A stretch of 64,000 nucleotides of DNA from Piscinibacter sp. XHJ-5. GTDB taxonomy: Bacteria > Pseudomonadota > Gammaproteobacteria > Burkholderiales > Burkholderiaceae_C. The position numbers and the translations under genes are program-made. Shown piece after piece: positions 22,606 through 36,678 of the stretch. The stretch is taken from contig NZ_CP123228.1 of the NCBI RefSeq assembly GCF_029855045.1, forward strand, positions 6,014,001-6,078,000, in the 5' to 3' direction. The notes under the pieces were generated by a model that was given only the letters and a program-made list of their open reading frames with translations, was not told the origin of the DNA and did not search any database. Every line of letters starts with the position of its first letter. Position 1 is the stretch's first letter.

Positions 22606-24675
22606 ATGGACCGGGGCCAACGCGAGGCGGGAAGCGCGCCGCATGCCGACAGTGCCCGTGACGCCGACGCCGCGGGCGTCGGCCGCATGGAGCGGGCCCT
22701 CATCGCCTCGCGCGACGGCTACTGGGAGCGCAACCTGCGCACCAATGTCAGCTGGTACTCGCCGAGCTTTCGCGCGCTGCTGGGCTTCACCGAGCAGGAG
22801 CTGCCCAACGACCGCGACGTGGTCAATGCGCGGCTGCACCCCGACGACCGCGAGGAATTCCTGCGCCGCTACGAGGAGGCCATCCGGACCTGCGGAACCT
22901 TCGCCTACGAGGGACGCATCCTCGACCGCAACGAGCGCTGGCTGTGGATGCGCGGTCGCGGGCGCGTCTGGGTGGGCGCCGACGGTCGCCCCGAGCTGAT
23001 CAGCGGCGCGGTGAGCGATGTCACCGCCGAGATGGAAGCATTGCTCGAGCTGGAGCGCCAGCGCCACGACCTCGAGCAGCTCGTGCGCGAGCGCACCGCC
23101 AGCCTCACGGCGGCGCTGGCGCAGGCCGAGCAGGGACGGCGCGAGGCCGATGCGGCCAACGAGGCGAAATCGCGTTTCCTCGCGCACATGAGCCACGAGA
23201 TCCGCACGCCGCTGAACGGCATCCTCGGCCTCACGGAGCTCGCCCTGCGGGTCACGCGGTCGGCGGCCGAGCGGCGCTACCTCGAGGTGGCGCTGCAGTC
23301 CGGGCAGGCGCTGCTGCAGGTCATCAACAACGTGCTCGACTTCTCGCGCATCGAGGCCGAACGCGTGCCGATCAACGACGAGCCGTTCGACCTGGCCGAT
23401 GCGATGGCCGAAGCGATGCGCGCGGTCGTGCCGCTGGTCCGCGCCAAGCGCCTGTCGATGCTGTACGACTACCTGGGCGACATCACGTGGGTGCGCGGTG
23501 ACGCGCCGCGCCTGCGCCAGGTGTTGACCAACCTGATCGGCAACGCCGCCAAGTTCACCGAACGCGGCCACGTGAAGCTCAGTGCGCAGGTCGTCCCGGC
23601 CGGACCGGACCGCTGCGTCGCGACCCTGCGCGTCGAGGACAGCGGCCCGGGCATCGCGCCGGGACAGCTCGCGCGCCTGTTCGATGCCTTCGAGCAGGGC
23701 GACACCAGCGCGACGCGGCGCCACGGCGGCACGGGCCTGGGCCTGTCGATCGCGCGTGGATTGGCGCAGGCCATGGGCGGCGACATCGCGGCGCAAAGCA
23801 CGCCGGGCGCCGGCGCCACCTTCACGGTGACGCTGCCGCTGGGCCGCGCCGACGACCCCGACCCGCTGCCCGACCCGGCCAGCGGCCACGCCTGGCTGGT
23901 GTACCGCCGCGAGCTGGCAGCCGAGCTCATGCAGCAGCGGCTCGAGCGCAAGGGCTGGACCTCGCTGCTGTTTCCCGGCGTGCCCGAGGCCATCGCGCAG
24001 GCGCGCTTGCTGCCGCCCGAACGCAAGCCGGCGCTGGCCATGCTGCCCGAGCACGTGCTGGACGCAGACGCCGACCTGCGCACGTTGCGCAGCGTGCTGC
24101 CCGACACGCACATCGTGCTGCTGGTACGCGTCGACTGGCTGAACACCCGCTTCGAGCGCCTGGCGAGGGAGCTCGGCATGCCGTTGATGTTGCTGCCGCT
24201 GACGCCGCGCGACCTGAAGCTGGTCACCGGCGGCGATCGCCTGAGGCCGGCCGCGCCGTCGGAGCCGGCCCCCCACACGCCGAACGCGCAGGCCCCCGTG
24301 CTGATGGTGGAGGACAACGAGGTCAACCGGATGATCGGCGACGAGTTCCTGCGCGCGCTCGGGCTGCCGACGCGGGTGGTCGCCAGCGGCGAGGAAGCAC
24401 TGGCCGCCTGCGCTCAGGAACCGCCGTCGCTGGTCCTGATGGACCTGCAGATGCCTGGCATGGACGGCTTCGAGACGGCGCGACGGCTGCGCGCGATGCA
24501 AGACGATGGCCGTCTGCCGCCCTTCCCCATCGTCGCGCTGACGGCGCATGCGCTGGAAAGCGATGCGGTGCGCTCACGCGCGGCCGGCATGGACGGGTTC
24601 CTCAGCAAGCCGATCATGCTGGAGTCGCTGCGGGGCGAGCTGGCGCGGTGGTTGCCGGCCTTGCGGGAGGCTTGA
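22606..24675 (+). CDS. Hybrid sensor histidine kinase (PAS-HisKA-HATPase-REC)
   Basis: A 689-residue soluble kinase with no membrane helix. In order: a PAS fold (about 30-145), a coiled coil, HisKA with the phospho-His in FLAHMSHEIRTPLNG (about 200), HATPase_c with N (LTNLIGNAAKFTERG), G1 (VEDSGPGI) and G2 (GGTGLGLSIARGL) boxes, a degenerate receiver-like segment (about 425-545) without a clear phospho-acceptor Asp, and a true C-terminal receiver with Asp in LVLMDLQMPGMDG. Such kinases usually pass phosphate to a separate HPt protein; none is encoded nearby. The signal sensed is unknown, and no ribosome binding site is obvious. Confidence 0.92.
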   Translation: MDRGQREAGSAPHADSARDADAAGVGRMERALIASRDGYWERNLRTNVSWYSPSFRALLGFTEQELPNDRDVVNARLHPDDREEFLRRYEEAIRTCGTFAYEGRILDRNERWLWMRGRGRVWVGADGRPELISGAVSDVTAEMEALLELERQRHDLEQLVRERTASLTAALAQAEQGRREADAANEAKSRFLAHMSHEIRTPLNGILGLTELALRVTRSAAERRYLEVALQSGQALLQVINNVLDFSRIEAERVPINDEPFDLADAMAEAMRAVVPLVRAKRLSMLYDYLGDITWVRGDAPRLRQVLTNLIGNAAKFTERGHVKLSAQVVPAGPDRCVATLRVEDSGPGIAPGQLARLFDAFEQGDTSATRRHGGTGLGLSIARGLAQAMGGDIAAQSTPGAGATFTVTLPLGRADDPDPLPDPASGHAWLVYRRELAAELMQQRLERKGWTSLLFPGVPEAIAQARLLPPERKPALAMLPEHVLDADADLRTLRSVLPDTHIVLLVRVDWLNTRFERLARELGMPLMLLPLTPRDLKLVTGGDRLRPAAPSEPAPHTPNAQAPVLMVEDNEVNRMIGDEFLRALGLPTRVVASGEEALAACAQEPPSLVLMDLQMPGMDGFETARRLRAMQDDGRLPPFPIVALTAHALESDAVRSRAAGMDGFLSKPIMLESLRGELARWLPALREA

Positions 24676-24708: not shown

Positions 24709-25548
24709 TCACGCCCCCGCCAGGAACCTCTCCACCAGCGCGAACTGCGCCGGCGTGTTCAACGCCGGTGCATGCCCGCAATCGGGGATCTCGATGACCA
24801 CCGCGCGCGGTCCGCGGGTGCGCATCCCATCGGCGGTTTGGGCGAGCAGGAGGTCGGAGCTCTCGCCGCGCAGGCACAGCACCGGCAGGTCGAGGCTGTC
24901 CCATGCGTCCCACAGGAGATAGTCGTCGTCGTGGTGGGTGAACTGCATCACCATCGCCGGATCGTAGTGCGGGGTCACGCGGCCGTCGGGCAGGCGGCGC
25001 GTCGAGGTTTCGGTGAGGCGCCGCCACTGCGCGTCGCTGAGCCAGCCGTAAGGCTTGTAGATGGTGCGGAAGTACTGCTCCAGCTCGCTCACCGTGTCGA
25101 ACGCCGCCGGGTTGCCGGCGTAGCTTCGGATGCGCGCGATCGCCGCATCGGCGAGCTGCGGCCCGTTGTCGTTGAGCACCAGCCGGCGGATGCGACCGCG
25201 CAGCGGGCCGGCCGCGGCCAGCGTGCCGATCGCACCGCCCATCGACGTTCCCAGCCAATGGAAGCGGTCGAGCCCGAGCTGGTCGACCAACGACACCGCC
25301 AGCTTCACGTAGAACGCCAGGCAGTACTCACGCGCCGGATCGGGGCTCCACTGGCTCAGACCGCGCCCCAGGGTGTCGGGGCAGATCACGCGATAGCGCT
25401 GCGCGAGGTGCTCGGCGATGTCGTCCATGTCGCGGCAGGTGCGTGCCAGGCCGTGCCAGGCGATCACGGTCTCCTCGTTGGCGTCGCCCCACTCGGTGTA
25501 GTGCAGCTCGCGCCCTTCGCAACGCAGGTAGCGGGAGGTGGGATTCAT
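24709..25548 (-). CDS. Alpha/beta hydrolase, last gene of the PHB operon
   Basis: A 279-residue alpha/beta-fold hydrolase. The nucleophile elbow is GTSMGG (about residue 100), the acid is likely in the strand after LCLRGESSD, and the catalytic His is in IPDCGHAP (about 257). There is no signal peptide, so it is cytoplasmic. It lies 19 bases after the 3-hydroxybutyrate-oligomer hydrolase gene on the same strand. From context it could cleave imported hydroxyalkanoate oligomers or related esters; the sequence alone does not show the substrate. Confidence 0.85.
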   Translation of the reverse strand: MNPTSRYLRCEGRELHYTEWGDANEETVIAWHGLARTCRDMDDIAEHLAQRYRVICPDTLGRGLSQWSPDPAREYCLAFYVKLAVSLVDQLGLDRFHWLGTSMGGAIGTLAAAGPLRGRIRRLVLNDNGPQLADAAIARIRSYAGNPAAFDTVSELEQYFRTIYKPYGWLSDAQWRRLTETSTRRLPDGRVTPHYDPAMVMQFTHHDDDYLLWDAWDSLDLPVLCLRGESSDLLLAQTADGMRTRGPRAVVIEIPDCGHAPALNTPAQFALVERFLAGA

Positions 25549-25567
25549 GGAGCTCGCCGCGAAGAGA

Positions 25568-27769
25568 TCAATCCGGCACGTGCAGCGTGCGGCCTTGCAT
25601 CGTGATGCGGTCGGTGTCGGCCGGGTGCAGCGCGATCGGCGGCACGTTGGCCTCGGTGATGGACGGGGCGGCGCCCGGGGTGCCGCCGCGCGGGAGGGTG
25701 CGCACCACCTGGCTCGGCGGCAGCGGCTTGCCCTGGCGCAGGTGCTCGTACATCGCGTCGAGCGCGCGGTTCAGATACACGTGCAGCGGCACGTAGCGCG
25801 TGTCGTAGCCGGGCAGCAGCGTGGGCAGGCCGATGAAGCCGTCGAAGTGCTGCGCATTCGTCACCTCGATGTACGACAGCTGGCTCCGATGGCCCTCGAC
25901 GCGCTTGTTCAACGCGGTGTACGGACGCGAGGTGTGGTTCACCGGCAGCAGCGCGTCGGCGCGGCCGTGCACGATCAGCGCCGGCTTGCCGTTCAGGTCG
26001 CCGCTGCGCCGCGTCTCGTCGATGCCCCGCTGCAGCGCCTGCGCGGCGGCATCCTCGCCGGTCAGCAGGGCGCGCAGGCACAGCGCGCCGTCGAGGTTGA
26101 AGTCCTGCTTCAGCGTCGACGGCGAGAACGAGAACAGGTCTCGCAGCGCGAAGCCGGGGTTGAGGTCGTTGATCAGCTGCACGCCGGACGACGGCGGCAC
26201 GCCGTTGCCCGTGGCTGCCATGGGGGCCAGCAGCAGGGGGTTCAGCGGCGCCACCAGCCCCGTGGGCGTCGTCGCCGCGAAGCTGTAGCCGCACAGGGAG
26301 TCGGCGACGCCGGCGCGCGCCAGCGCGTTGGCGAAGGTCACGCTGACCGCCGGGGCCACCTCGAATGCCGCCAGGGACGCGTGCAGCACCGCCGACTCGG
26401 GCTCCCAGCCATAGGCGGCGAGTGTGGCCAGCGCTTCGTTCGCCTGCGCCTCCAGCGTGTCCCCGCCCAGCAGGCCCTTGGCCTTGAGCGACGCGCAGCG
26501 GTTGGCGGCGAAGGCCGCGACGACGAAGGCCGAGCCGGGCGCCCCTGCCACGTGCGGGGACAGCGCCGCGCAGCTCTGGTAGAGATTGGCGTGGGTGGTG
26601 AAGTCGTACAGCGTCTTGCCGGTCGTGGGCTGCAGCGTCGTGCCGCGGCGGATCGCGATGCCGGTCTGCGCCGGCAATTCGACCGCCGGCTCGGACACGG
26701 CCACGCCGTCGATCAAACGCTCACGATCAAGCTCGGCGGCCGCGATCGCCGCGCCGCCGCCGTTGGAGATGCTGGAAGCGATGACCAGCGTGTGCCCCGG
26801 ACGGATCGTTCGCAGCTTGCGGCCTTGCGGCAGCGCGATGCCATGTCGCTCGTTGAGCGCCCAGTAGGCGAACTCCACCGCCTGCAGCGTGAAGCGGCCC
26901 CAATCCTTCTCCGGATTGCGCTGCGAATGCGCGTGCTTGAACGCGAAGCGCTCCGGGCGGGCGGCGTTGAGGGCGGCACGCTGCGCATCGGTCAGCGGCG
27001 CGCGGAACTGCGCGCGATCGCCGGCCAGCGCAGCCGTCGTGCGCGTGCCGTCGATCAGCGGCACGGTGTCGTTCGCCAGGTCGTGCGGCGCGCTGCCGGT
27101 GCCCTTGTCGGTGTAGGCCACGGCGCAGCCGCGCTTGAGTCCCCATTCGCCGGTGCTGATCGCGCCGTACACGCCGCGCGATCCCGACGAGGTGGCCGTC
27201 ACGATGCAGGGCCGGCGCGGGTCGAAGCTCGCCGGCACCTGCACCAGGAGCACCACGTTCTGCGGCTCGCCCTCGCTGCCGTCGGCGCCGCGGCTGAAGG
27301 CGACGTATTCGGTGCCGGCGATCTTCCCTTCGCCGCTGGTGATGCTGCCGTCGGCGCCGACGTTCGGCCCGTACAGCGTGCCGTAGCCGCCGGCGGCCGT
27401 CATGTCGACGATCGCGCGGTAGCTGTTGTAGATGGCGGCGCGGCGCAGTTCGGCGGCGGTGGGCACCAGCGCGTTGGCGAACGGCGGCAGGGCGCCCCCG
27501 AGGCCGGTCTTGCCGAGGCCCGCGGTCAGCAGGTCGTCGGCGTGGCCGTCGTAGTCGGTGACGTGCACCTCGCCGTGCACGAAGGACGGCAGGCGATTGA
27601 ACATGCCGCGCGGCCCTGCGACGTCGGCCGAAGCGCCCGCCACCGACTGCGCCGCGGCATTGCGCTCGGACGCCGGCACCGACTCGCTCGCGACCGGCGC
27701 GTCGCCGCCGCCGCCGCAAGCGGCGAGCAGCGCCGCGCCAAGAACCGCCAGCCCCTTCAGGATCTTCAT
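25568..27769 (-). CDS. D-(-)-3-hydroxybutyrate oligomer hydrolase, lipoprotein
   Basis: A 733-residue protein of the 3HB-oligomer hydrolase family (EC 3.1.1.22), which cuts the short oligomers released from poly(3-hydroxybutyrate) to monomers. The N terminus is a lipoprotein signal with lipobox LLAAC followed by a Gly-rich linker, so it is probably membrane-anchored. The likely nucleophile Ser is in ASSISNGGG (about residue 334), and a late His is in TNAQHFDGF. The ATG at 27769 overlaps the livM stop as ATGA, and GGAG lies about 9 bases upstream. Coupling to a permease gene suggests that hydrolysis and uptake work together. Confidence 0.92.
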   Translation of the reverse strand: MKILKGLAVLGAALLAACGGGGDAPVASESVPASERNAAAQSVAGASADVAGPRGMFNRLPSFVHGEVHVTDYDGHADDLLTAGLGKTGLGGALPPFANALVPTAAELRRAAIYNSYRAIVDMTAAGGYGTLYGPNVGADGSITSGEGKIAGTEYVAFSRGADGSEGEPQNVVLLVQVPASFDPRRPCIVTATSSGSRGVYGAISTGEWGLKRGCAVAYTDKGTGSAPHDLANDTVPLIDGTRTTAALAGDRAQFRAPLTDAQRAALNAARPERFAFKHAHSQRNPEKDWGRFTLQAVEFAYWALNERHGIALPQGRKLRTIRPGHTLVIASSISNGGGAAIAAAELDRERLIDGVAVSEPAVELPAQTGIAIRRGTTLQPTTGKTLYDFTTHANLYQSCAALSPHVAGAPGSAFVVAAFAANRCASLKAKGLLGGDTLEAQANEALATLAAYGWEPESAVLHASLAAFEVAPAVSVTFANALARAGVADSLCGYSFAATTPTGLVAPLNPLLLAPMAATGNGVPPSSGVQLINDLNPGFALRDLFSFSPSTLKQDFNLDGALCLRALLTGEDAAAQALQRGIDETRRSGDLNGKPALIVHGRADALLPVNHTSRPYTALNKRVEGHRSQLSYIEVTNAQHFDGFIGLPTLLPGYDTRYVPLHVYLNRALDAMYEHLRQGKPLPPSQVVRTLPRGGTPGAAPSITEANVPPIALHPADTDRITMQGRTLHVPD

Positions 27770-28854
27770 CGGGTGTCTCCTCGTGTGGTTTGTGTCGTCG
27801 ATGCGGCGCGCAGCCGACCCACCACCCCGCTGGGGAAGTGATAGACGGACAGCACGAACAGGATGCCCAGCCACAGCAGCCAGCGGTCGGGCGAAACGAG
27901 CTGCGACACCACCGGCACGCCCTCCACGGCCGAGGCACCGAGCTTCATCAGGTCCTGCAGGTAGCTCTGCGCCAGCAGGAACAGCACGCCGCCGACGATG
28001 GCTCCGTAGATCGTGCCCATGCCGCCGATCACGACGATCAGCAGGATGTCGAGCATGATCTCGAACGACAGCGAGGTGTCGGGCCCGTTGTAGCGCAGCC
28101 AGAGCGCCAGCAGGCATCCGGCCAGCGTGGCGAACAGCGCCGAGAGCACGTTGGACAGCGTGCGGTAGACCACGGTGCGGTAGCCGATGGCCTCGGCGCG
28201 AAAATCGTTCTCGCGAATGGCCTGGAGCACGCGCCCGAACGGCGAGTTGACGATGCGAAGCATCACGAGCACCAGCACCACCGCCGCCACGAACAGCAGG
28301 TAGTAGGTGACGAAGCGGCCGTCGATGGACGCACCCAGCCAGGGGTCCTCGAGGTACTGCGTGCCGGGCTGCAGCGCCTCGGGCACCTTGAAGTTGAGGC
28401 CGTCCTCGCCGCCGGTGAATTCCGACAGCTGCGACGCCAGCGTGAGAAAGGCCGAGGCCACGGCGAGCGTGATCATCGCGAAGAAGATGGCCTTCACGCG
28501 CAGGCTGAACAGGCCGATGACCAGCGACAGCAGCAGCGAGACCACCAGCGCCGCGGCCACACCCACCAGCACCGCCCCCCAGCCGGGTCCGATCCGCGTG
28601 CTGGCGATGGCGACACCGTAGGCGCCGATGCCGAAGAACATGGTGTGCGCGAAGCTGACGATGCCGGTGTAGCCCAGCAGCAGGTCGTAGCTCGCCACCA
28701 GCACGATGAACACCAGCACCTTCGCGGCGACGTTGAGCGCCTTGGTGCCCGGGAAGAGAAACGGCGTGAGCGCGAGGCCGAGCACGATGACGACCAGCAT
28801 CAGCGTGAGCCAGCGGTTGCGCGGCAGGTCATGGGAGAGCAGTCGGTTCAGCAT
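27766..28854 (-). CDS. livM: ABC transporter permease, LivM type
   Basis: A 362-residue inner-membrane permease of the branched-chain amino acid (HAAT) family with about 8-10 helices. The family motif for contact with the ATPase, SPFGRVLQAIRENDFRAEAIGY, is present. The start at 28854 lies 8 bases after the livH stop, with GAGG upstream. The last bases overlap the oligomer hydrolase start. The name refers to the family; from context the substrate is more likely 3-hydroxybutyrate or its oligomers than an amino acid (inference). Confidence 0.93.
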   Translation of the reverse strand: MLNRLLSHDLPRNRWLTLMLVVIVLGLALTPFLFPGTKALNVAAKVLVFIVLVASYDLLLGYTGIVSFAHTMFFGIGAYGVAIASTRIGPGWGAVLVGVAAALVVSLLLSLVIGLFSLRVKAIFFAMITLAVASAFLTLASQLSEFTGGEDGLNFKVPEALQPGTQYLEDPWLGASIDGRFVTYYLLFVAAVVLVLVMLRIVNSPFGRVLQAIRENDFRAEAIGYRTVVYRTLSNVLSALFATLAGCLLALWLRYNGPDTSLSFEIMLDILLIVVIGGMGTIYGAIVGGVLFLLAQSYLQDLMKLGASAVEGVPVVSQLVSPDRWLLWLGILFVLSVYHFPSGVVGRLRAASTTQTTRGDTR

Positions 28855-28862
28855 CGCGATCC

Positions 28863-29902
28863 TCACCGGCTCGTCACCGGATACAGCCCTTGCGGCCGCC
28901 ACAGCAGCACCAGGACCATCAGGCCGATGTTGGAGAACATCGCCACCTTGGGCGCGAGGAAGCCCGTGTAGTTGGCCATCAGTCCGACCAGCAGCGCGCC
29001 GACGAAGCAGCCGAGCGTGGAGCCCAGGCCGCCGATGATGATGACGATGAAGATCAGCACGTTGACCGCCGCCCCCATCTGCGGCACCACGCCCTGCTGG
29101 TACATCCCCCACAGGCTGCCGCCCAGGCCGGCCAGCGCCGAGCCGGCGACGAACACGCCGACGAAGAGCCGGCGGATGCGGTAGCCCAGGCTCTCGACCA
29201 TCTCGCGGTCCTGCACGCCGGCGCGGATCAGCAGGCCGAGCTTGGTGCGGTTGAGCGTGTACAGCATCGCGATCAGCACCGCCGCGCCGACCACCACCGC
29301 GAGCACGCGGAATTTCTCGACCGCCGCGTCGCCGAAGATCAGCGCGCCGCGCAGCGCCTGGGGCAGCGGCAGCGGCTGCGGCCCGGGGCCCCAGATGACC
29401 TTGATCAGCTCCTCGCCGATGATCATGCCGCCCATGGTGATGAGGATCTGCTTCAGGTGCTGGCCGTACACCGGCCGCACCAGCACGCGCTCGAAGGCCC
29501 AGCCCACCGCGCCGGCAACGGCCATCGCGACGACCATGGCCGGAAGGACGGCGGCGAGGTTGCGCCAGAGGCTGTCGGACGCGGTCCAGTCGGCCATCGT
29601 GCCGAGCACGCTCATGCCGACGAAGGCGCCGAGCGCGATGAACACGCCGTGGCCGAAGTTCAGCACATCCATCAGGCCGAACACCAGCGTGAGCCCGGAC
29701 GCGATGATGAAGATGATCATGCCCATCGCAAGGCCGGCGATGGTCAAGGTGACCCAGGTGGGCGAGGAGCCGATGAAGGGCCAGGCGAGCAGCGCGAGCA
29801 GCGGCACCAGTGCCATCGGCACCCAGTCGAAGCTGGCCTTCGGGACGGCCGCGGCGGCCGTGGCGCCCGTTGCCGCCGCCGCGGGGGTGGTGGTCGTCGT
29901 GT

Positions 29903-29906
<4 letters not shown>
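28863..29906 (-). CDS. livH: ABC transporter permease, LivH type
   Basis: A 347-residue inner-membrane permease, partner of LivM. It has an unusual Thr/Ala-rich N-terminal tail of about 25 residues, then hydrophobic helices with the family motifs LVFGLMDVLNFGHGVFIALGAF and TKLGLLIRAGVQDREMVESLGY. Its ATG (29906) overlaps the livF stop as ATGA. It belongs to the SBP-depolymerase-livGFHM-oligomer hydrolase gene run. Confidence 0.94.
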
Positions 29907-30648
<742 letters not shown>

Positions 30649-30652
<4 letters not shown>

Positions 30653-31404
30653 GCGGCCTCCGCCGTCGCCAGGCCAAGGTAGGCGCTCTGGACCACCGGC
30701 GACGCGATCACCGTAGCCGGCTCGCCATCGGCCACCAGCTGCCCGTTGTGCAGCACGATGATGCGGTCGGCCAGCTCGCGCACCACGTCCATCTTGTGCT
30801 CCACCAGCAGGATGGTCTTGTCCTGCTGCGCCTTCAGCGCGCGGATGAGGTCCAGGATCACCGGCACGTCGTCGACGCTCATGCCGGCAGTGGGCTCGTC
30901 GAACATGTACACCGAGGGTTCCAGCGCCATCAGCATCGCGACCTCGAGCTTGCGCTGGTCGCCGTGCGGCAGGCTGGCGGCCGTCGCGTCGGCGCGATCG
31001 CCCAGCTTCACCCGCTCGACCAGCGCATGCGCGCGCTCCAGCGTGTTGCGGTGATCGAGCCACACCGACCACAGGTTGAGTCCTTCGTGCCGCCGGGACT
31101 GCACCGCCAGACGCACGTTCTCCACCACCGAGAGCTGCGGAAACAGCTGGGTAAGCTGGAACGCGCGCCCCAGCCCGCGGTGCGTGCGCGACGAGGCGGT
31201 GTCGCGCGTGATGTCCACGCCGTGGAGGTGCACCGTGCCTTCGCTCGCACGCAGCTGGCCGGAGACGAGGTTGAAGTACGTCGTCTTGCCGGCGCCGTTG
31301 GGGCCGACGATCGCGGTGAGCGTGCCGGGCTGGAAGGCGCAGCTCACGTGGTCCACCGCGACATGGCCGCCGAAGCGGATGGTCAGGTTCTTCGTTTCAA
31401 GCAT
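30649..31404 (-). CDS. livG: ABC transporter ATPase, LivG type
   Basis: A 251-residue ATPase. Walker A is GPNGAGKTT, the signature is the LivG variant LPHGDQRK, Walker B is SVYMFDEPTAGM, and the switch is LVEHKMD. It lies 26 bases after the PHB depolymerase gene and is coupled to livF by an ATGA overlap. Family membership is clear; the transported compound is inferred from context. Confidence 0.95.
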
Positions 31405-31430
31405 GTCGTGTGGTTCGAGGAAAGTTCATC

Positions 31431-32861
31431 TCAGGAACACCCGCCGACCACAAAGTGGTTGGGCCCCGTCTGCTTCAGCGTCGTCGTCACGAACACGTTC
31501 CACAGCCCCATGTTCTGGTTGGACCCGTTCGCATACGCATACCCGCCGCTCTGGTGGGCTCGCCCCGCCGTCGTGTGCGCGTAGTTCGATGACGTGAAGC
31601 ACACCGTCGCGCTGCCCGTGGTCGTGCCCGGGGCCGGCGACGACGGCGGGCTCTCCGCACCGCTGCCGTCGACCGCCTTCACGGTCCAGCTGTAGGTCGT
31701 GCCGGGCGCCAGGCCGGTGTCGGTGTAGCTCGTCGTGCCGACGAGCGATGCGTTGGCCTTGGCGCCGCCGCGGTACACGTTGTAGCCCGCCGCGCCGTTC
31801 ACCGCCGCCCAGCCGATCACCATGCTGGTGTCGGTCGCCCCGGACGTGAACACGCCGGTCGGCGCGGGCAGCGTCGAGGGCGGCGTGCCGCTGCCGATCC
31901 GCTCGACCATCGCCTTGATCGCGGCCATCTGCGGGCCGCTCTTCTTCGCGTAGTCGGGGTTGTCGTAGCCCCACCAGTCCCAGCAGCTGTTGGTCGCCGC
32001 CTGGCTGGTCTGCGGGTACAGCATCACCAACCGGTTGGTGTCGGCCCATCGGTTGTAGCCGGTGCTGCGGACGTACTGCTGGCCCACGTCGGCCGTGTTC
32101 TGCTTGCAGCCGTGCAGGACCACGTGCAACCGGCACGGCGTGCCGGCCGAGCAGGCCTGCGGCACGTAGATCCATCCGGTGCTCGCCATGCCGTGGCCGC
32201 TGATGTAGGCGGTCTGGTCGAACTCGGTGAAGCCGCCCGACAGCGTGCCGTCGTTGCGCGCATTCAGGGGTCCGTACAGCTGCGTGAGGATGGCGCCGGC
32301 GAGGTCGAAGTTGCAGTCGTTGATGTAGGGCGGCGCCTTGACGCTGCAGGCGCCCCCGTAGTCGTCGGTGACGAAGGCATGCTCGGCGGCCAGGTCCTTC
32401 CTGTAGACGATGTTGCCGGCGGGCACGAAGCTCTGGTAATAGGTGAGCAGGTCGTTCATCACCGGCTGCTTGACCGCGCTGTCCAGCGTGCCGGAGAACA
32501 GGTAGAGCCGGGAGGCCGAGAGATTGGACACGGGGTCGAGAAGGCCGCTCGCCGCCCAGCTTCTGGTCGTGTTGACCAGCGTGGCCACCGGGATGCTGGT
32601 GTTGTGTGCCATGCAGCGGCCGGTGGCGTTCACGATGGAGCCCTCTGCGCAGAAGAACGGCCCCCCGGCGACGACGCCGGCGCCCTTCCTGAACGTGGCG
32701 GAGAACGCCACATGCAGCTGCACCGCCATGTAGCCGCCGGAGGACAGGCCGGAAACGGTGGTCTCGGCCGGATCGATCGCGACCTGCGGCAGCGGCGCAG
32801 CGCGCGCCGCCAGCGGCCAGGCCACCACCGACATCACGACAAAGGTCCGCCAGCTCTTCAC
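31431..32861 (-). CDS. Extracellular poly(3-hydroxybutyrate) depolymerase, type 2 motif order
   Basis: A 476-residue secreted enzyme. A signal peptide (MKSWRTFVVMSVVAWPLAARA) is followed by a catalytic domain with lipase box GLSSG (Ser40) close to the N terminus and an oxyanion motif VVLHGCKQ about 210 residues later; this circularly permuted order marks type 2 depolymerases. A fibronectin type III linker (about 325-405) and a C-terminal domain of about 65 residues rich in Ser, Asn and aromatics, probably for polymer binding, follow. The start is GTG with AGGAG 6 bases upstream. It degrades PHB outside the cell and supplies oligomers to the adjacent genes. Confidence 0.93.
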   Translation of the reverse strand: MKSWRTFVVMSVVAWPLAARAAPLPQVAIDPAETTVSGLSSGGYMAVQLHVAFSATFRKGAGVVAGGPFFCAEGSIVNATGRCMAHNTSIPVATLVNTTRSWAASGLLDPVSNLSASRLYLFSGTLDSAVKQPVMNDLLTYYQSFVPAGNIVYRKDLAAEHAFVTDDYGGACSVKAPPYINDCNFDLAGAILTQLYGPLNARNDGTLSGGFTEFDQTAYISGHGMASTGWIYVPQACSAGTPCRLHVVLHGCKQNTADVGQQYVRSTGYNRWADTNRLVMLYPQTSQAATNSCWDWWGYDNPDYAKKSGPQMAAIKAMVERIGSGTPPSTLPAPTGVFTSGATDTSMVIGWAAVNGAAGYNVYRGGAKANASLVGTTSYTDTGLAPGTTYSWTVKAVDGSGAESPPSSPAPGTTTGSATVCFTSSNYAHTTAGRAHQSGGYAYANGSNQNMGLWNVFVTTTLKQTGPNHFVVGGCS

Positions 32862-32881
32862 GCAAGTCTCCTGCTCAACCC

Positions 32882-32989
32882 GCCGGCTTCAGCCGGCTTG
32901 TTCTTCATGCTGGAGCCCCCTCCCGGAGGGGGCTGGGGGAGCAACCGTCCGCGCGCAGCGCTGAAGGCGTCTTCGACGCCTTCAGCGCT
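32882..32989. repeat. Cluster of three hairpins between binding-protein and depolymerase genes
   Basis: Three perfect inverted repeats lie in tandem: a 15-bp stem (AGCGCTGAAGGCGTC, loop TTC) at 32957-32989 that includes the stop codon of the binding-protein gene; a 10-bp stem (AGCCCCCTCC/GGAGGGGGCT) at 32914-32934; and a 7-bp stem (GCCGGCT/AGCCGGC) at 32882-32897. No long T run follows. They may protect the upstream mRNA or act as a partial terminator, giving more binding protein than downstream products. The block may also be a dispersed REP-like element. Confidence 0.8.
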
Positions 32990-34190
32990 TGTTGCGGATC
33001 GGCACGTTCATCTCTTCGGGCTTGATCTCGCGCACCAGCTCAGGCACCCCCCAGGCGAACGCCGGGTCGGCCTTGATCTTGAAGTGGTACATGCTCTGCA
33101 TCGCCTGGTGGTCTTCCTTGCGGAAGGTCATGCGGCCCTTGGGCGTGTCGAAGCTCATGCCTTCCATCGCCTTGATGAGCTTCTCGGTGTTCGTGTCGCC
33201 ATTGGTCTTCTTCAGCGCCTCGACCAGCGCGATGCCGGCCGACATGCCCCCGGCCGTGAAGAAATCGGGCGGCGTCTTGAACCGGCTGTAGTGATTGGCC
33301 ACCAGCCATTCGTTGGCCGGGTTCTTCGGGATGCCGAAGTAGTAGTAGGTGGCGCCTTCCATGCCCGGGAACTGCTTGTACGAAGCCATCGCCGGCAGGA
33401 TGTTGCCGCCGGTGGACACCTCGATGCCGTAGCGCTTGTGCAGCTCCAGGGCGGCGAGCGCGTTGTACGGCGGTGTGCCGCCGGCCCAGACGACTTCGAT
33501 GATCTTGCGGCCCGGCTTGTCCTTCAGCGCATCGATGAGCCGCTGGATGCCGGCGGTGAAGTCGGTGGTGGCCTGGGGGAGATATTCCTCGTGAACGATC
33601 TTCGCGTTCTTGAGCGCCTCCTTGAACGCCTTCACGCCGTCGCGGCCGAACGCATAGTCCTGCGCCAGCATGGCGATGCTGATGCCCGGCTTGTCCATGG
33701 CCACCGCGTTCGAGATCGCGTCCTGGGAGCTGTTGCGGCCGGTGCGGAAGATGAACTTGTTCCACTTGTCGCCGGTGATGGCGTCGGCCACCGCGGGCTC
33801 GACCAGCAGGATCTTCTTGTACTCCTCGGCGACCGGCAGCAATGCGAGTGCGACGCCGGACGACGACGGCCCGACCGCCACATCGGCCTTGTCGTCGCCG
33901 TAGGCCGCGGCGAGCAGCGACTTGCCGACGTCGGGCTTGCCCTGGTCGTCCTTCTCGATGACGACCAGCTTCTTGCCGGCCACGGTCATCGTGCCCTGGG
34001 TCGCGTAGTCCAGGCCCATCAGCAGGCCGGTCTGCGTCTGCTTGCCGTAGGCTTCCAGCGGCCCGGTCTTGCTGTAGACGTGCGCGATGCGGACTTCCTT
34101 CGCTTGCGCAAGTGCCAGGGCGGGCATCGCGCCGACGGCGGCGGCAACCAGCAGGGCCAGGGTCGACCGGCGGAGGGGGACGAGGGTCAT
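32982..34190 (-). CDS. ABC transporter substrate-binding protein (LivK-type) of the PHB operon
   Basis: A 402-residue periplasmic binding protein, with Sec signal MTLVPLRRSTLALLVAAAVGAMPALALA and mature start QAKEVRIAHVYSKTGPLEAYG. It is the first gene after a sigma54 promoter, with GGAG 9 bases before the ATG, and serves the LivGFHM transporter encoded downstream. The ligand-contact region PSSSGVA and the segment RTGRNSSQDA differ from amino acid binding proteins I know, but I cannot prove a hydroxyacid ligand by eye. It is inferred to capture 3-hydroxybutyrate or short oligomers. Confidence 0.92.
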   Translation of the reverse strand: MTLVPLRRSTLALLVAAAVGAMPALALAQAKEVRIAHVYSKTGPLEAYGKQTQTGLLMGLDYATQGTMTVAGKKLVVIEKDDQGKPDVGKSLLAAAYGDDKADVAVGPSSSGVALALLPVAEEYKKILLVEPAVADAITGDKWNKFIFRTGRNSSQDAISNAVAMDKPGISIAMLAQDYAFGRDGVKAFKEALKNAKIVHEEYLPQATTDFTAGIQRLIDALKDKPGRKIIEVVWAGGTPPYNALAALELHKRYGIEVSTGGNILPAMASYKQFPGMEGATYYYFGIPKNPANEWLVANHYSRFKTPPDFFTAGGMSAGIALVEALKKTNGDTNTEKLIKAMEGMSFDTPKGRMTFRKEDHQAMQSMYHFKIKADPAFAWGVPELVREIKPEEMNVPIRNKR

Positions 34191-34226
34191 GGGGCTTGTC
34201 TCCGTTCGAGTGATCCGCAGGACAAG

Positions 34227-34241
34227 GCAAGGGCTGTGCCA
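34227..34241 (-). promoter_or_regulatory. Sigma54 (-24/-12) promoter of the PHB operon
   Basis: Reading the minus strand, TGGCAC (34241-34236), 5 bases, then TTGC (34230-34227). GG and GC are exactly 10 bases apart, as sigma54 requires, and the core matches TGGCAC-N5-TTGC without mismatch. The expected transcription start is near 34215, 25 bases before the binding-protein ATG. Confidence 0.88.
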
Positions 34242-34376: not shown

Positions 34377-35855
<1,479 letters not shown>

Positions 35856-35988: not shown

Positions 35989-36678
35989 ATGGTCGACCCC
36001 ACCCCCTTGCGTCCCGCCTCGCTGCACGAGGAAGTCGCCGCCCGCCTGCGCACGATGGTCTTCGATCGCGTCCTGGCGCCCGGCCAGTGGATCGATGAAA
36101 TGGCTCTGGCGCGCGACTGGCAGATCAGCCGCACCCCCCTGCGCGAGGCGTTGAAGGTGCTGGCCGCCGAAGGACTCGTCACGCTGGTGCCGCGCCAAGG
36201 CTGCAAGGTCACCGAGCTGTCCGAAGAAGACGCCGACGAGTTGTTCCCGGTGATGGCCCTGCTGGAGGGCCGCTGCGCCTACGAAGCCGTGCAGAAGGCA
36301 ACGCCGGCCGACCTGAAGCAGCTGCGCCGGCTGCACGAAGCCCTCGAGAAGCACGCCGCGGCGAAGAACGTCGACGGCTACTACCGTGCCAACCACGAGT
36401 TCCACACCAAGGTGCAGTCCCTCGCGGACAACCGCTGGCTGGACCGCACCACCGGCGACCTGCGCAAGTTCGTCCGGCTGCTGCGCGGGCGCCAGCTCCA
36501 CTGGCCGGGCCGCATCGAAGAGTCGATCGGCGAGCACCGGCAGCTCATCGACGCCATGGAGAAGGGCGACGCGCAGCGAGCCGAGCGCCTGATGCACGAC
36601 CACCTCATGGCGCAGCTCGCCGCCTTGAAGGCGCTGCGTGCCCACGAAGAAGCTGAACGGAGTACCCAGCATGCTTGA
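35989..36678 (+). CDS. matR: GntR/FCD-family regulator of malonate genes (MatR-like)
   Basis: A 229-residue repressor. The N-terminal winged helix (LHEEVAARLRTMVFDRVLAPGQWIDEMALA ends in the recognition segment SRTPLREALKVL) is followed by an all-helical FCD domain with metal-binding His candidates in ANHEFHTKV, GEHRQLI and MHDHL. Its last codons overlap the malonyl-CoA decarboxylase start by 8 bases. MatR of rhizobia is also a GntR protein next to matA and matB and responds to malonate, so the same role is inferred here. Confidence 0.82.
   Translation: MVDPTPLRPASLHEEVAARLRTMVFDRVLAPGQWIDEMALARDWQISRTPLREALKVLAAEGLVTLVPRQGCKVTELSEEDADELFPVMALLEGRCAYEAVQKATPADLKQLRRLHEALEKHAAAKNVDGYYRANHEFHTKVQSLADNRWLDRTTGDLRKFVRLLRGRQLHWPGRIEESIGEHRQLIDAMEKGDAQRAERLMHDHLMAQLAALKALRAHEEAERSTQHA

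Follow-up and report, generated by a model that had tools for sequence, protein, structure and literature searches.

A sigma54-type operon of Piscinibacter sp. XHJ-5 and its relatives couples a Liv-type transporter, predicted to import 3-hydroxybutyrate or its oligomers, to optional polyhydroxybutyrate-digesting enzymes

The 64,000-nucleotide stretch analysed here (the window; positions 6,014,001 to 6,078,000 of contig NZ_CP123228.1 of Piscinibacter sp. XHJ-5) carries a locus in which enzymes that digest poly(3-hydroxybutyrate) (PHB) are encoded together with a Liv-type ATP-binding cassette (ABC) transporter. Nine minus-strand genes follow one another from 35855 down to 24709: an activator, a binding protein, a PHB depolymerase, LivG, LivF, LivH and LivM, a 3-hydroxybutyrate (3HB)-oligomer hydrolase and an alpha/beta hydrolase. 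A preliminary description of the window had presented the last eight as one sigma54 operon, and coordinates and profile matches agree with the positions, strand and order it gave for all of them; the sigma54 activator gene (34377-35855), absent from its list, belongs to the operon unit. The features, in the direction of transcription, are:

34377 to 35855, minus strand: sigma54-dependent activator, HbcR-like, 492 residues, with PAS, AAA+ and Fis helix-turn-helix domains
34226 to 34241, minus strand: sigma54 promoter, GG-N10-GC (sequence site)
32982 to 34190, minus strand: periplasmic binding protein, predicted to bind 3HB or 3HB oligomers (PF13458, Peripla_BP_6, 176 bits)
32914 to 32934, minus strand: GC-rich inverted repeat between binding protein and depolymerase, a possible attenuator
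31431 to 32861, minus strand: type-2 PHB depolymerase (slot 1), with signal peptide by eye, catalytic domain, Fn3 and C-terminal domain
30649 to 31404, minus strand: LivG-type ATPase (Pfam/NCBIfam profiles)
29903 to 30652, minus strand: LivF-type ATPase (Pfam/NCBIfam profiles)
28863 to 29906, minus strand: LivH-type permease (Pfam/NCBIfam profiles)
27766 to 28854, minus strand: LivM-type permease (Pfam/NCBIfam profiles)
25568 to 27769, minus strand: 3HB-oligomer hydrolase, predicted lipoprotein (slot 2; PF10605)
24709 to 25548, minus strand: alpha/beta hydrolase, signal peptide not seen by eye (PF00561)

The LivG/LivF, LivF/LivH and LivM/oligomer hydrolase pairs overlap by 4 bases each, as had been described, and the gaps are 8 bases between LivH and LivM, 19 between the two hydrolases, 26 between depolymerase and LivG, and 120 between binding protein and depolymerase. 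The 186-base interval between activator and binding protein holds the sigma54 site, TGGCACAGCCCTTGCC, at 34241-34226, 35 bases ahead of the binding-protein ATG. A consensus scan of the region found no sigma70-type promoter (0 versus 0.5 expected).

The depolymerase passed the NCBIfam model NF050059 (e_dPHAscl_type2) with 398.7 bits against a cut-off of 280, and its catalytic domain matched the PHB depolymerase chains 2d80/2d81 with E 2e-66. It also has an fn3 match, a signal-like N terminus by eye, a lipase box (GLSSG) at residue 38 and an LHGC motif at residue 249; a lipase box ahead of the oxyanion motif is what we take to be the mark of type 2 depolymerases. The oligomer hydrolase matched PF10605 over the cut-off and full-length (1028.9 bits, profile positions 13-688 of 688), and is the sole PF10605 match in the genome (one 6.65 Mb contig). 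The transporter has the Liv/HAAT architecture of a binding protein, two permeases and two ATPases by Pfam, with the NCBIfam Liv and Urt equivalogs hit below their cut-offs. In the activator, PF00158 and PF02954 were over the cut-off and PAS_4 barely so (23.2 vs 23.1 bits); PAS_4 scored 29.6 and 31.4 bits in two relatives of the activator (L265 and L134).

The gene order is not unique to this genome, and recurs in related ones. Among 150 genomes of the family, the window genome included, the binding protein was found in 85 at E < 1e-60, and in 83 of these at E < 1e-190. We mapped the loci of the 84 other genomes by tblastn, which together with the window gave 85 operons; the stretches are unequal in reach, two of them (G478 and G183) showing just ~3 kb upstream of the activator. 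The usual order in relatives is activator, binding protein, LivG, F, H, M and alpha/beta hydrolase. The activator could be located in 66 of the 85 stretches, and the alpha/beta hydrolase accompanies the transporter in 75 of the 79 rows of a tree of concatenated transporter proteins. Where no oligomer hydrolase lies between, it starts at most 205 bases from LivM in 48 of 51 cases and 1.2-1.9 kb away in the other 3. A second, named set was chosen by the oligomer hydrolase, with 80 loci kept of 135 found; among the 64 loci with at least 7.5 kb upstream, the whole transporter is present in 40 and LivM is missing in 24. No depolymerase was seen in the Cupriavidus stretches of this set, and in one Cupriavidus locus (L053) an acyl-CoA ligase gene separates LivM from the oligomer hydrolase, with a MaoC protein also there.

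The promoter is conserved along with the genes. A site was scored where a GG-N10-GC motif agreeing with the consensus at 10 or more of 12 positions fell in the 400 bases preceding a gene match. Of 82 operons, 71 have such a site ahead of the binding protein, as do 62 of the 66 whose stretch shows the activator, compared to a rate of 2.9% in Markov shuffles and 2/82 on the opposite strand. Upstream of the other genes it was found at LivG in 0/84, LivF in 4/82, LivH in 0/81, LivM in 1/81, the alpha/beta hydrolase in 1/75, the depolymerase in 0/22, the oligomer hydrolase in 1/25 and the activator in 1/64. A looser threshold of 9/12 discriminated worse (binding protein 77/82, shuffles 15.6%, alpha/beta hydrolase upstreams 37/75). 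Since the PHB enzymes mostly have no good sigma54 site of their own, they would rely on the shared promoter, barring another kind of promoter. The anatomy, in layout and conserved promoter, is thus that of the single sigma54-type operon originally proposed.

The two PHB enzymes behave differently from the rest of the operon. Each occupies a fixed place: the depolymerase slot, between binding protein and LivG, is filled in 22 of 85 operons, and the oligomer hydrolase slot, between LivM and the alpha/beta hydrolase, in 26 of the 77 scored. Among the 77 operons scored for both, 42 have neither enzyme, 14 the oligomer hydrolase only, 9 the depolymerase only and 12, including the window, both; in this scoring a fragmented oligomer hydrolase (G027) was counted as absent and another (G142), lying on a second contig, was scored manually. 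A locus dedicated to PHB can be rejected on these counts, and the preliminary picture of one dedicated system that secretes, digests, imports and hydrolyses did not hold up. With 42 of 77 operons lacking both enzymes, the unit is the transporter with its alpha/beta hydrolase, and the depolymerase and the oligomer hydrolase come as additions to it. In genomes that have the binding protein as well as a type-2 depolymerase, the two lie within 12 kb of each other in 21 of 24 cases (118-290 bases apart, in one case 1681); for the binding protein with the oligomer hydrolase the count is 25 of 32, or 26 with one contig break. Fisher tests at the genome level, uncorrected for phylogeny, gave p 0.0019 for binding protein with oligomer hydrolase and p 0.00045 for oligomer hydrolase with depolymerase; these tests used N = 150 though the window genome was outside the lists. 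The genome counts exclude weak or partial oligomer-hydrolase matches (G074, G086, G139) and below-cut-off depolymerases, except that of G104, kept despite its score as it is cut by a contig end. One further locus (L235:8636-12415, G140) has a depolymerase beside an oligomer hydrolase on the same strand, with no transporter match in the stretch.

On the 79-row transporter tree the minimum number of changes was 17 for the depolymerase slot and 14 for the oligomer-hydrolase slot, counts which do not separate gain from loss. We then compared pairwise identities of each partner with those of the transporter core (rho), setting partners against each other on identical rows. The depolymerase gave 0.10 versus 0.745 for the alpha/beta hydrolase (21 rows) and 0.09 versus 0.85 for the activator (17 rows); the oligomer hydrolase gave 0.12 versus 0.69 for the alpha/beta hydrolase (24 rows) and 0.11 versus 0.84 for the activator (20 rows). 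When co-evolution with the core was tested by permutation (500 each), alpha/beta hydrolase and activator both gave p 0.002, the depolymerase p 0.088 and the oligomer hydrolase p 0.046, a faint signal. Of the 22 slot depolymerases, 12 form one well-supported clade and 10, the window's among them, fall outside it. In a genome of the same genus (G096) the core is 87% identical to that of the window and the depolymerase, a member of the 12-member clade, 52%. Plain vertical inheritance with losses of the PHB enzymes is disfavoured by the rho values of ~0.1 and by the 12-member clade. By these comparisons the transporter has co-evolved with its activator and alpha/beta hydrolase, and the two PHB enzymes have a separate history; we infer that each of the two fixed places has repeatedly seen insertion, exchange or loss.

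The activator is the most telling partner for the question of the transporter's ligand, and the preliminary description made no use of it. Relatives at E < 1e-110 occur in 34 of 398 genomes sampled across the phylum: the window genome, 7 others of the family and 26 from outside it. In 18 of these 26 non-family genomes a 3HB dehydrogenase shares the stretch with the activator relative. These 18 are 56-81% identical to one of three queries (L265 being itself the source of one), and all 11 that were tested by NCBIfam were over a 3HB-dehydrogenase cut-off. A transporter lies by the activator relative in 25 of the 26: a permease-like protein in 16, TRAP in 5 and Liv-type ABC in 4, with none in 1. 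The permease-like protein has 460-530 residues and no Pfam match, its role as a permease being presumed; it stands together with a 3HB dehydrogenase in 13 of the 26 neighbourhoods. Three of the five TRAP cases (L280, L281, L289) also hold a 3HB-oligomer hydrolase (PF10605, 827-852 bits) with a 3HB dehydrogenase, and are perhaps a second architecture for the same job with another transporter class. Two of the four ABC cases, which may be Bradyrhizobium relatives, have a CoA-transferase (PF01144) between activator and binding protein. One regulator family with one substrate theme and three importer classes makes 3HB or its oligomers the likeliest cargo.

The PAS part of the window activator matched the PAS of six relatives elsewhere at 32-41% identity, and against seven other sigma54 activators from its own genome it gave nothing better than E 0.1; in full-length comparison one of these seven aligns from residue 67. 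Pseudomonas HbcR is activated by (R)-3HB (PMC10482368, PMC8694187), and its PAS domain is placed at residues 17-123 (PMC8694187). The window activator has the PAS, sigma54-activator and Fis domains of the HbcR type, and the linkage to a dehydrogenase is found in its relatives and not in the window. A GntR-type regulator (35989-36678 of the window) is divergent from the activator gene, as also seen in some relatives, and at the other end a hybrid histidine kinase with PAS and receiver domains (22606-24675, plus strand) is convergent with the end of the operon.

The binding protein itself scored 62.6 bits against the LivJ/K model PRK15404, whose cut-off is 477. Its alignment with LivJ is weak (hhalign probability 74) and places Ile264 or Asn263 opposite LivJ Glu226, Ala135 near Thr102, and Ser111 at the conserved Ser79; LivJ Ser79, Thr102 and Glu226 are presumably ligand contacts. 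Ile264 and Asn263 are invariant in 83 binding-protein sequences. As far as this uncertain alignment goes, the predicted pocket suits a carboxylate without an alpha-amino group. The closest solved chains are 3n0x and 3nnd. Tandem binding-protein gene pairs occur at L193 and L205 (G132 and G063). The earlier suggestion that the transporter imports 3HB or short oligomers was retained insofar as such a cargo fits better than branched-chain amino acids: the low LivJ/K score and the 3HB dehydrogenases beside the activator's kin support 3HB or 3HB oligomers as the better explanation of the predicted transporter.

The two hydrolases probably act on different sides of the membrane. The oligomer hydrolase has an LAAC lipobox at residues 15-18, in agreement with its earlier description as a lipoprotein, and a lipobox-like motif was found in 65 of 80 named oligomer-hydrolase loci, a crude count as the start is out of view in three and wrongly placed in some. 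With a lipoprotein signal this enzyme looks exported and would therefore act before import. The hydrolysis step placed after import by the preliminary description is thus kept in altered form, as the small alpha/beta hydrolase, with no signal peptide by eye, could follow import. The S102, D232 and H259 of the latter are invariant in 15 sequences, and it is kept with the transporter also where PHB enzymes are absent (rho with the core 0.64), for which reason we favour oligomers as the cargo. Three 3HB dehydrogenases over the family cut-off are encoded in the window genome outside the operon. At L269:5805-8819 of this genome a 3HB dehydrogenase, an acetoacetate decarboxylase and a 477-residue permease-like protein stand together; the last had no match in Pfam (E 0.001) or NCBIfam (E 1e-10), and its relatives are those that neighbour the activator in 16 of the 26 genomes.

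We consider it probable that the locus is a 3HB-responsive sigma54 import operon with optional PHB-digesting cassettes, importing 3HB or short oligomers. The PAS-type activator would sense (R)-3-hydroxybutyrate or a derivative, as its relatives and HbcR suggest, and fire the one sigma54 promoter. In genomes having them, the two PHB enzymes would supply the importer from extracellular PHB, the secreted depolymerase cutting the polymer to oligomers and the exported lipoprotein hydrolase cutting these in turn. The Liv-type transporter would bring in 3HB or, more likely, short 3HB oligomers, the alpha/beta hydrolase would split the imported material in the cytoplasm, and 3HB dehydrogenases encoded elsewhere in the genome would oxidise the imported 3HB. 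A more specific version, to which we give somewhat less than even credence, is that an oligomer ABC importer, cytoplasmic alpha/beta cleavage and a 3HB-sensing activator form a locus at which lineages repeatedly switch between digester and scavenger, the digester state having depolymerase and/or oligomer hydrolase plugged in and the scavenger state being importer and hydrolase alone.

Several observations weigh against an import operon for 3HB or its oligomers tied to PHB digestion. The operon itself has no 3HB dehydrogenase; none was found in 8 of the 26 non-family activator neighbourhoods, nor by three activator relatives from a class sample (L263, L264, L266), two of which have TRAP genes, one of these with a CoA-transferase. 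The separate L269 locus means that 3HB monomer may have its own importer. The binding-pocket argument leans on a weak hhalign alignment. Within the family, the oligomer hydrolase is missing from 52 of the 84 genomes having the binding protein, the binding protein is missing from 10 depolymerase genomes and 10 oligomer-hydrolase genomes, and across genomes binding protein and depolymerase are weakly associated (Fisher p 0.076, without correction for phylogeny). Six LivM-bearing rows yielded no alpha/beta hydrolase, at least 2 of them being cut by contig ends. Export of the oligomer hydrolase is also in doubt: in PMC2864759 the PhaY of C. metallidurans is treated as an orthologue of an H16 enzyme described as intracellular, and this calls the location of the oligomer hydrolase into question, if that enzyme belongs to its family. 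In the phylum sample the binding protein was found in 23 of 398 genomes (8 of them family members including the window genome), and the 16 transporter stretches of the 15 others hold an oligomer hydrolase in 1 and a depolymerase in 0. The activator is present in 4 of these stretches and the alpha/beta hydrolase directly follows LivM in 2. Since PHB enzymes are so rare there, the link of this transporter to PHB enzymes belongs to the family and its close kin. Two of the outside relatives (L140, L141) adjoin a presumed amine decarboxylase, and L140 also a FAD monooxygenase (both read without profile search); the ligand may differ in that lineage. Among distant loci, L139, L146 and L143 have acyl-CoA ligase (in L143 just at the margin of the locus), TetR and enoyl-CoA hydratase-like genes, the last profile-checked in L139 and L146, with MaoC matches in two of the three loci; these neighbours possibly serve activation and epimerisation of (R)-3-hydroxyacyl-CoA.

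Part of this evidence could also be read as import of the monomer only, with all ester cleavage outside the cytoplasm and the alpha/beta hydrolase acting on a lactone or another ester. The lipoprotein signal of the window enzyme and the lipobox-like motifs of the named loci fit such a division, as do the activator relatives by a permease-like protein or TRAP, which mostly have a 3HB dehydrogenase as expected for a monomer, and five f48 genomes outside the family with no alpha/beta hydrolase match. We regard monomer-only import as possible though rather doubtful, because the alpha/beta hydrolase is otherwise so constant and co-evolving a companion of the transporter, with or without PHB enzymes, and because the L269 locus already offers a 3HB dehydrogenase with a permease-like protein. 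The cargo could also be another carboxylate, or short hydroxy and oxo acids broadly, the PHB enzymes having been captured as the operon suits them. The many operons without a PHB enzyme (42 of 77), the single non-family stretch of 16 with one, the acyl-CoA ligase and MaoC of Cupriavidus L053 and the other neighbours of distant relatives point that way, and in an excerpt of PMC3223731, on an "R." species, others bound aromatic, fatty or dicarboxylic acids. We think this unlikely, as two different PHB enzymes were captured at fixed places and 18 of 26 activator-relative stretches hold a 3HB dehydrogenase. All five parts being Liv-type, an ordinary branched-chain amino acid transporter sharing its operon with PHB genes by chance had to be considered as well. 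It was rejected as very improbable: the LivJ/K score is far below the cut-off, the tentative alignment puts Ile264/Asn263 on Glu226, the operon is kept in most of 84 genomes, and the activator family is linked to 3HB dehydrogenase.

The 3HB import operon with optional cassettes resembles several known systems in part. It shares the five-part architecture and the families of Liv/HAAT (LivJFGHM), but its binding protein is far below the amino-acid model and the gene context points to 3HB. In P. aeruginosa, we take it, a permease, bdhA and hbcR lie side by side. The HbcR (PA2005) locus is alike, by architecture and not by sequence, in its PAS and sigma54 activator and in that the window activator's relatives likewise lie near a 3HB dehydrogenase and a permease-like protein; it differs in that the window importer is a Liv-type ABC system with alpha/beta hydrolase and PHB enzymes and no dehydrogenase in the operon. 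Extracellular PHB depolymerase with 3HB-oligomer hydrolase is known as the Ralstonia pickettii type, and both enzyme families occur in the window locus, here as cassettes within a regulated import operon. Polysaccharide utilisation loci follow the logic of secreting, digesting, importing and hydrolysing in one regulated locus; the window locus has the same logic, but for a polyester, with an ABC binding protein and permeases in place of a SusC/SusD pair and with the enzymes optional. A 2010 study by Hara reportedly concerns an ABC transporter and a monoalkyl phthalate ester hydrolase of Rhodococcus jostii RHA1, which, compared by title, similarly joins ABC transporter and ester hydrolase in one carboxylate-ester pathway, with a different substrate.

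In the open-access literature, with subscription papers mostly outside its reach, we found no description of this operon or of an ABC importer for 3HB or its oligomers. The words transporter, uptake and permease are absent from the main text of a 2025 review of polyhydroxyalkanoate biodegradation, and the entry of PHB digestion products into the degrader seems hardly described. The locus supplies a candidate importer, regulator and cytoplasmic hydrolase for this step, with the binding protein present in 85 of 150 family genomes. From this locus, PHB digestion looks like a plug-in trait added to widespread scavenging of 3HB, a view that matters when forecasting which bacteria break down bioplastics and which feed on material released by others.

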